Source of the DNA: Halorhabdus tiamatea SARL4B
Lineage (GTDB): Archaea > Halobacteriota > Halobacteria > Halobacteriales > Haloarculaceae
DNA length: 64,000 nucleotides
Reading direction: 5' to 3'
Assembly: GCF_000470655.1 (NCBI RefSeq)
Contig: NC_021921.1
Location: forward strand, 2,480,001-2,544,000
Part shown: in pieces, positions 54,576-56,157 of the stretch
Numbering within the stretch: position 1 is the first letter of the stretch
How the letters are laid out: each line of letters begins with the position of its first letter
Program-made: the position numbers and the translations under genes
The notes under the pieces: generated by a model
The model's input: only the letters and a program-made list of their open reading frames with translations
What the model was told of the DNA's origin: nothing
Database searches by the model: none

Positions 54576-54705
54576 GGTAGTGTTCAGATACGGATCCGAG
54601 ACGATGGGAACCACTCTGAAAGCCTTCGCCCTTTCATTCCGCCAGGATTCAGCTGATCAGCAGGGAGAAGCAGGCTTCTTTTTCAGTGCTTATCTGAACA
54701 CCGCC
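54576..54705. repeat. Inverted-repeat-bounded 130-bp segment (possible MITE)
   Basis: An 11-base arm gtgttcagata at 54580-54590 has an exact inverse complement tatctgaacac at 54691-54701; a few outer bases also match (ggyrg). The enclosed 100 bases have no gene. No clear target duplication was found around it. It lies in the gap between the AhpD-like gene and tRNA-Trp. A small non-autonomous element or a chance inverted repeat are both possible. Confidence 0.35.
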
Positions 54706-54736
54706 AGCAAAAGGTGGAAAAGGTTAATAATCCCAA

Positions 54737-54911
54737 TGGGGTCGGAGGGATTTGAACCCCCGATCGACTGATATCTCCGGTAGCGCCTCGGAACTCCAGA
54801 GGGTCATCAGTGCGACGGTGATCAGCCGGTCGCTCAGTATATCAGTCTGGAGTGTCGTCCCGGGCGCGTGCCTCTGGAGTCAGTCGCCATGCCGGACTTG
54901 GCCACGACCCC
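54737..54911 (-). tRNA. tRNA-Trp (CCA) with a 101-base intron
   Basis: The mature tRNA has two exons. Exon 1 (54911-54874) starts GGGGTCGTGGCCAAG and ends in the anticodon loop CTCCAG, with anticodon CCA. Exon 2 (54772-54737) is ATCAGTCGATCGGGGG onward, closing the acceptor with CGACCCC and discriminator A. The 101-base intron sits after base 37, where archaeal tRNA-Trp introns are known. It contains a TGATGA box-C string and CTGA box-D strings, as in the haloarchaeal intron that guides methylation of its own tRNA. The tRNA endonuclease and RtcB/archease are expected to process it. Confidence 0.95.
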
Positions 54912-54952
54912 GCGGATATTCGTTAGGATATTTGCCCTAAAGGGATTTCGAT

Positions 54953-55180
54953 TCACTCTCTGTCGGTCGTCGCCCACTCACAGTCCTGGCACTTCATCCC
55001 AGTCACGAACTCGGTAATCGAGGGCATATACCCGACTTCGAGGACGTCGCCACCACATTCGGGACAGTCCCGGTCGGCGTCTACGATCGACTCGGCATCC
55101 ATGACGTCTTCGCCTTCGATGAGTTCTGCGAGGCTAACGGCGGTGACCATCCGTCCCTCGACGACCCGGTTTTCGGCCAT
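54953..55180 (-). CDS. Small zinc-ribbon protein (DUF5795-like)
   Basis: This 75-residue protein begins MAENRVVEGRMVTAVSLAEL and ends in a zinc ribbon: DCPECGGDVLEVGYMPSITE, then FVTGMKCQDCEWATTDRE. Four cysteines in CPECG and CQDC would bind one zinc. The pattern agrees with a small haloarchaeal family that I recall as DUF5795; the function is unknown. It lies upstream of tRNA-Trp on the same strand. Confidence 0.85.
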   Translation of the reverse strand: MAENRVVEGRMVTAVSLAELIEGEDVMDAESIVDADRDCPECGGDVLEVGYMPSITEFVTGMKCQDCEWATTDRE

Positions 55181-55294
55181 GTCCGTGCCAGGGCATCGAT
55201 ACGCCTAAGCCTTCCCGTCGTGGCGAACGTCGCCCGAAATTACGTCCTACCTGTAACAGCGCGAGAATCCCGCCCTTCCCGTGAGCGACGAGTG

Positions 55295-55433
55295 TTCCGA
55301 CACTTGGTCGGAATCGAGAACCGAACAGGGGCATGGCAAGACCTTCGGTCTGGCTGTCGTTCGAGAGACGAAGTCTCTCGTGATGACGAGACGCGTAGCG
55401 TCTCGAACCACAACCGAAAATCTTCGATTTTCG
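55295..55433. repeat. Array of short palindromic hairpins
   Basis: Five hairpins occur in 139 bases: ttccgac/gtcggaa at 55295-55313, agacc/ggtct at 55339-55351, cgagagac/gtctctcg at 55362-55380, cgagacgc/gcgtctcg at 55387-55405, and cgaaaatc/gattttcg at 55415-55433. The last three have the same shape: 19 bases, 8-bp perfect stem, 3-base loop, starting cga and ending tcg. No gene crosses the region convincingly. It adjoins the ribbon-helix-helix gene and may be the left part of the tnpB element. Confidence 0.7.
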
Positions 55434-55477
55434 AGGACGGGCGTGAAGCGCGTAAGATCAGGTAAGAAACCGCCGCG

Positions 55478-55621
55478 TTACTGCTGGTCCTGTGTCTCCA
55501 ATGCATCCAGACCTGCCTCTAAAACCGCTGTATAGGCTTCCGAGAGGTCCAAATCGTTCGCTTCCGCGTAGTCTTTGACTCGCCCGCCGAGCGTGTGTGA
55601 AATATCGATGTTAGGCCTCAT
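55478..55621 (-). CDS. Ribbon-helix-helix-like small protein beside tnpB
   Basis: The 47-residue frame reads MRPNIDISHTLGGRVKDYAE, ANDLDLSEAYTAVLEAGLDA, LETQDQQ. An N-terminal beta strand (PNIDIS) followed by two helices (LGGRVKDYAE and LSEAYTAVLEAGLDAL) is the ribbon-helix-helix fold of MetJ/Arc-type DNA-binding proteins. It is divergent from the tnpB remnant across a 42-base gap that contains a perfect palindrome. It is intact while tnpB is broken. Control of tnpB by this protein is inference. Confidence 0.7.
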   Translation of the reverse strand: MRPNIDISHTLGGRVKDYAEANDLDLSEAYTAVLEAGLDALETQDQQ

Positions 55622-55631
55622 GACGAATGGA

Positions 55632-55646
55632 CTTTAAGACTTAAAG
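55632..55646. promoter_or_regulatory. Palindromic operator candidate between RHH gene and tnpB
   Basis: The sequence ctttaagacttaaag has perfect 7-bp arms around one central base. It lies midway between the divergent start codons at 55621 and 55664 and doubles as TATA-like sequence for both directions. This is the expected layout for a ribbon-helix-helix repressor that silences its own gene and tnpB. Confidence 0.6.
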
Positions 55647-55663
55647 TATAACAACCTGTCGTC

Positions 55664-56100
55664 GTGAAGCGGACCAACACGCTCGCCGTGCGACCGCTCT
55701 CCGATGCCGGAGAGCAACTGCTCCGGGACTTGTTGGACGCTTCCGCCGCTCTCTGGAACGAAGTCAATTACCAGCGCCTCATGCGGTACAACAACGAGGA
55801 CGGTTTCGAGGGCGAAGACGTGTGGGACGCCGATACCGGCGCTCTCGAAGGTCGATACAAAGACGTTCTCGGTGCGTCCACCGCCTAACAAGTCATTCGC
55901 AACACGTCGGACACCGTCGAATGGGGCGAGCGGTCCCGGCTTGAGATACTGGTCGGGCGCGAGTTGAAAGACCGATACGACCACACCGGGCGACTCCGGC
56001 TGGAAATCGCTGGCGACCCGAATTGGCCTGACTACCAGAAACAGGGCCGGTTAGAATCGTCGTCAGTTTGTGTCAACCGCTGTCGAGACCTCGCACGATT
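55664..56100 (+). pseudogene. Broken tnpB (IS605/IS1341-type) gene
   Basis: The GTG-started frame encodes MKRTNTLAVRPLSDAGEQLL, then RDLLDASAALWNEVNYQRLM, the typical N-terminus of haloarchaeal TnpB. It stops at 55888 after GRYKDVLGASTA. Homologous sequence continues in frame after the stop ([20 protein letters not shown], then [20 protein letters not shown]) and fades near 56060, with the segment normally between these blocks missing. The RuvC catalytic half and zinc finger are absent. So this is a remnant with an internal deletion, premature stop and 3' truncation; it cannot be an active nuclease. Confidence 0.85.
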
Positions 56101-56157
56101 TGGTCGCATATGCCGGACAATGCCACAATCGTAGGTAATACTTTTGATTGACTATTC

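Follow-up and report, generated by a model that had tools for sequence, protein, structure and literature searches.

A decayed transposon remnant with an intact candidate regulator gene

The window, a stretch of 64,000 nucleotides (G000:C2:2480001-2544000) within a 3.15-Mb haloarchaeal genome, contains a gene for a 47-residue protein of the ribbon-helix-helix (RHH) type (55478-55621, minus strand) that is intact from its ATG to its stop codon and faces, across a gap of 42 bp, the divergently oriented remnant of a tnpB gene (55664-56055, plus strand, with a GTG start at 55664). This remnant carries a nonsense codon (TAA, 55886-55888) where its relatives have a glutamine codon, an internal deletion of approximately 43-48 codons near 55892-55902, and no 3' part; the homology to tnpB ends at approximately 56055-56063, ahead of the OrfB_IS605 and TNB domains, and all of RuvC is lost. 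Between the two genes lies a perfect palindrome of 15 bp (CTTTAAGACTTAAAG, 55632-55646), which extends by one pair on each side to 17 bp (ACTTTAAGACTTAAAGT, 55631-55647); none of 300 shuffles of the 42-bp gap gave a palindrome as good, and its position over both putative core promoters fits the spacing expected of leaderless haloarchaeal genes. The initial annotation, which had described an intact RHH-type gene and a 15-base perfect palindrome beside a decayed nuclease gene, was correct on all three points.

Sequence similarity to related elements begins at approximately 55257; the conserved left-end segment (55257-55330, plus strand) is repeated in related genomes, where many copies match query positions 757/758-831, and it corresponds to the end of the mobile unit L166/L167. 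The right end is missing from the window copy. The region 55257-56063 (plus strand) is best explained as the left half, approximately 0.8 kb of an intact length of 1.6-1.75 kb, of an IS1341-type transposon (a tnpB-only member of IS200/IS605) that has decayed and that encodes a putative regulator of its own. The flanking blocks, with tRNA and zinc-ribbon genes on the left and an ABC transporter on the right (54735-56145), occur in different places in congeners, which places the dead element at a rearrangement junction. An intron-containing tRNA of 175 nt (54737-54911, minus strand) was detected by Rfam and missed by ARAGORN; a short element at 54581-54708 that ends in GTTCAGATA / TATCTGAAC, and of which a part is multi-copy in congeneric genomes, looks like a MITE.

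Conserved pairing of the RHH gene with tnpB

A scan of named genomes, in a search that favoured intact, full-length RHH copies, yielded 108 RHH relatives, of which 80 were kept; together with the four copies of the present genome these make 84 loci, and in 81 of them tnpB is directly divergent from the RHH gene, usually across a gap of 39-59 bp. The three unpaired genes are one cut off by a contig end (L062), one that still has the gap and a short stretch like the start of tnpB (L072), and one that has lost the tnpB side (L018). Of 145 genomes sampled evenly across the class, 56 gave RHH matches, and tnpB was divergent in all 29 loci fetched from this second set, with an extra small open reading frame in between in two of them; among 295 genomes sampled across the phylum, the matches listed all fall within the window's own order. 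Three further members of the RHH family are present in the genome itself, and a divergent tnpB with a long open reading frame lies 44-47 bp from each of them. The earlier proposal of a recurrent tnpB control module in haloarchaea, to be sought as an RHH gene beside intact tnpB, is strongly supported by these associations. The RHH gene adjoins approximately 28 of the 46 tnpBs closest to the partner, as counted by reading match lists, and approximately 40% stand without this regulator; RHH and TnpB distances are correlated (Mantel r 0.76).

In this genome, a 1755-bp unit that holds the RHH gene and tnpB, and leaves no space for tnpA, is shared by two copies at 95% identity; since these paralogous copies share a unit with both genes, the RHH gene and tnpB move together. 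Another unit, of 1607 bp, is 100% identical between two further copies and comprises tnpB plus a small gene of a different kind (see below). An intact tnpB relative in the same genome matches PF01385 (OrfB_IS605, 2e-31) and PF07282 (TNB, 1e-13). The full-length partner TnpBs retain D215 and D385 in 75 of 75 cases; the canonical RuvC-II glutamate is a glycine, and all have an alternative glutamate (E-x6-C) six residues ahead of the zinc finger. A rearranged catalytic glutamate has been described for Fanzors and some TnpBs (PMC10711439). The nuclease-dead TnpB repressors known as TldR (PMC13418256) likewise tie TnpB loci to the control of transcription; in contrast, the partner TnpBs keep the catalytic D, E, D residues, which rules out TldR identity, and repression is here proposed to come from a protein other than TnpB. 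The IS1341-type elements of haloarchaea, with sotRNA or omega RNA (PMC8303175, PMC12558985, PMC3119063), are also tnpB-only members of IS200/IS605 in the same hosts, whereas an RHH partner and operator go unmentioned in the available portions of this literature. The intact copies tested against the Rfam sotRNA and omega RNA models gave no match.

The intergenic gap: palindrome and tandem repeat array

The perfect palindrome was rejected as a conserved operator. It is exact in the window copy only, and relatives show at least one mismatch in the 17-bp sequence; at this site, the relatives in group A mostly read CTTTTAGTCTTAAAG, close relatives also CTTTCAGTCTTAAAG, and other groups differ. The 15-mer is unique in the 3.15-Mb genome at up to two mismatches, and the perfection of the palindrome is a one-base accident of the window copy. 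Conservation is seen instead in a tandem repeat with an 8-bp period, which overlaps the palindrome. The gaps of all groups share G(T/A)C triplets spaced every 8 bp, sometimes 9 (e.g., GTCTTAAAGTCTTTTCGTC, GTCTAAATGTCTTTTGGAC, GTCTTGTGGTCCTAAAGTC), and the gap of L077 has four such triplets in a row. In the window, the minus strand carries three GTC boxes with an 8-bp period, at 55638-55640, 55630-55632, and 55622-55624, which form the candidate operator array (55622-55640, minus strand); the palindrome spans the first of these boxes fully and the second partly.

Among 20 gaps of less than 80% identity, GTC pairs at 8 bp were seen 21 times against 0.12 expected, and the eight least related gaps (<58% identity) hold 11 G(T/A)C pairs against 0.35 in dinucleotide shuffles, with 0 of 400 shuffles reaching 11; as a caveat, the loci are related by descent, and the shuffle statistics overstate their independence. 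A G(T/A)C pair at 8 bp is present in 105 of 110 gaps with an RHH gene, and in none of the 18 upstream regions of tnpBs that lack one, 14 of which come from the closest clade. In most groups, the boxes are found at distances of approximately 25, 33, and 41 bp from the start of tnpB; the register of the array to tnpB is largely conserved, while the length of the gap varies from 39 to 50 bp, so that the distance to the RHH start shifts.

Natural variants of the element add to this picture. Fifteen close tnpBs without an RHH gene (L114-L128) share a different conserved 5' segment (AGTGAAAGTGAAACT .. GTTGGAGACTCA), in many cases ending in a relic of the RHH tail (ETQDQQ, stop); this C-terminal relic indicates that the regulator and the array were lost together. 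In L108 and L109, a zinc-ribbon-like open reading frame of 75 codons, apparently co-directional with the RHH gene, has come to lie between the RHH gene and the array, and the array stays at the tnpB promoter. Judged by spacing, G069:C1:256111 and G007:C1:692919 have the same arrangement.

The RHH protein and its relatives

An AlphaFold2 monomer model of the window protein shows two confident helices (residues 11-21 and 26-45), whereas the strand that precedes the two helices at the N-terminus of RHH superfamily proteins is not formed in it; CopG, CdbA, Rv0298, AmrZ, and PutA are among the best Foldseek matches, none of them significant by E-value. Pfam and NCBIfam searches with the window protein gave no match, a few of its relatives match TraM, MatP_C, and FitA-like RHH models weakly (E 0.003-0.14), and a PDB sequence search with the RHH profile returned nothing significant, the best hit being ArtA (E 0.08). 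The 47-residue protein probably folds as a ribbon-helix-helix dimer. The gene is easy to overlook, because it is absent from public annotation or listed as "hypothetical protein", and neither Pfam nor NCBIfam has a model for it. A search of phage records gave no match.

The RHH protein resembles the repressors CopG, Arc, and MetJ in its size class (45-50 residues), in its two-helix core, and in the location of its gene beside its own, here candidate, operator; the met boxes of MetJ are arranged in tandem with 8-bp spacing, like the array described here. It differs from them in that it has no sequence family match, and in that its putative target is the gene of a transposon-borne RNA-guided nuclease. 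By description, it can also be likened to CdrS and CdrL, small RHH transcription factors of Halobacteria (PMC7439475); CdrS, however, is chromosomal and co-transcribed with ftsZ2, whereas the genes described here are mobile and face away from tnpB in divergent orientation. In L140 and L141, the same RHH domain is fused to a protein of approximately 350-400 residues, with tnpB absent nearby; the L140 fusion protein has no Pfam match. A conserved chromosomal RHH relative of 45 residues (MRVDIAIERGSDLHERVKEYSRENGLRMDFAY..) occurs in L134 and L136-L139, with a GTACG..ACGTAC-like sequence upstream.

A second family of small genes facing tnpB

Other tnpBs, two of them in this genome, face a different protein of 45 residues (..QYERLKELK..RGLTWKGLLLEG..) across approximately 42-61 bp; the loci are L180-L188, L205-L207, and L129-L133, and the two genes in this genome lie at G000:C2:2011273-2011407 and 2471718-2471852. 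The structure model of this protein resembles CopG, Arc, PutA, and CdbA, and RHH proteins account for 12 of its 14 Foldseek hits, none significant by E-value; the family appears RHH-like and unrelated to the first. Its partners include a deeply divergent TnpB class, and it also faces TnpBs with the canonical glutamate and a TNB match (L192, L194, L196, L209). Some of its gaps contain inverted repeats such as ATAGATATgaATATCTAT, which stand out in three of ten cases only. On the TnpB tree, in which several nodes are weak, the two RHH families and copies without an RHH gene are interspersed; this pattern suggests that 5' modules may have been exchanged among tnpB elements.

Proposed function of the RHH gene

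The RHH gene is a conserved component of the transposon, and its product is most likely the element's own repressor of tnpB. Specifically, it is likely that the protein is a transposon-encoded autorepressor that would bind as tandem dimers to the 8-bp array over the core promoters, silencing both tnpB and itself. RHH dimers would sit side by side on the G(T/A)C boxes at their 8-bp spacing, covering the tnpB TATA region (approximately -25 to -43 from the start codon) together with the divergent RHH promoter, and could in this way block the access of TBP and TFB, a mechanism well documented for other repressors. Since both genes share the gap, autorepression would follow, and the number of boxes, two to four, may set the cooperativity. 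In a copy already established, repression would hold the RNA-guided nuclease at a low level, and a new copy that enters a repressor-free cell would produce a burst of tnpB expression. The analysis shows the divergent pairing, the mobile unit, the array with its register to tnpB, and the catalytic residues of the partner TnpBs; we infer that the protein forms dimers, that it binds the array, that it acts as a repressor and not as an activator, and that entry into a new cell would set off a burst. Alternatively, the RHH protein may activate tnpB.

Within the mobile unit, the RHH gene lies at the left end, the place taken by tnpA in other IS605 elements, and this would also suit a protein that acts chiefly in transposition or DNA architecture, as relaxosome RHH proteins do, binding near the left end and aiding excision by TnpA supplied in trans, with any effect on tnpB transcription being secondary; RHH proteins such as PcfF act at oriT (PMC6514445). 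Such a role is unlikely, as the array holds its register to the tnpB start and stays at tnpB when an open reading frame is inserted between the array and the RHH gene. The AT-rich composition of the array and its location approximately -25 to -43 of tnpB are compatible with a plain core promoter (TATA/BRE) serving the two divergent genes, with no role as a regulator site; this reading seems very improbable given that the array is missing from the 18 RHH-less tnpB promoters, 14 of them in the closest clade. Core promoters are not known to contain G(T/A)C triplets, two to four of them, recurring every 8 bp. Small RHH proteins are common antitoxins, and RHH antitoxins are listed by Foldseek, so that one could envisage a relationship like that of toxin and antitoxin, with the RHH protein also binding TnpB as its inhibitor; yet the genes of the paired loci are divergent and form no operon, the protein has almost no tail beyond its RHH core for binding a partner, and tnpB survives without it, which leaves very little credence for this possibility. 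The autorepressor model is the reading preferred here.

From the survival of the regulator beside a dead nuclease gene, the initial annotation had drawn the possibility of a selected role of its own. Selection could maintain the orphan RHH gene as a trans-acting repressor, for example against incoming copies or for the control of host genes: the window RHH protein is intact and lacks private amino acid changes, the same genome holds three further RHH copies paired with tnpB, and a full-length RHH gene stands beside a disrupted tnpB in 24 of 99 scorable loci, a proportion that comes from a search favouring intact RHH copies. Against this, RHH remnants and stop-bearing RHH copies exist elsewhere, the palindrome has no other copy in the genome, and the RHH gene is a target approximately 10 times shorter for mutation. 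The tnpB remnant has accumulated two synonymous and four non-synonymous private changes in 131 codons, and the RHH gene one and none, respectively, in 47; so few private substitutions in tnpB indicate that it died recently, and they are too few to tell whether the orphan RHH gene is under selection. A separate selected role is accordingly unsupported and seems doubtful.

A broader and rather speculative extension, to which we give only a small chance, is that haloarchaeal tnpB transposons as a group carry exchangeable divergent RHH repressors, drawn from two or more unrelated families that differ in their operators, and that these repressors would act as a phage-like lysogeny switch for the nuclease; repressors orphaned by the death of their tnpB would then confer immunity in trans against incoming copies.

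Implications for the control of TnpB

Among the literature searched for TnpB together with an RHH regulator, the passages available contain none that links the two. Element-encoded repressors of transposition genes are of a known kind; one dedicated to the gene of a TnpB-family RNA-guided nuclease, with a conserved tandem operator, appears to be new. TnpB is an RNA-guided nuclease related to Cas12, and how transposons restrain it is largely open beyond control at the RNA level. A conserved, element-encoded putative repressor with a readable operator would make it possible to test, in tractable haloarchaea, whether tnpB is kept silent in established copies and released on transfer.
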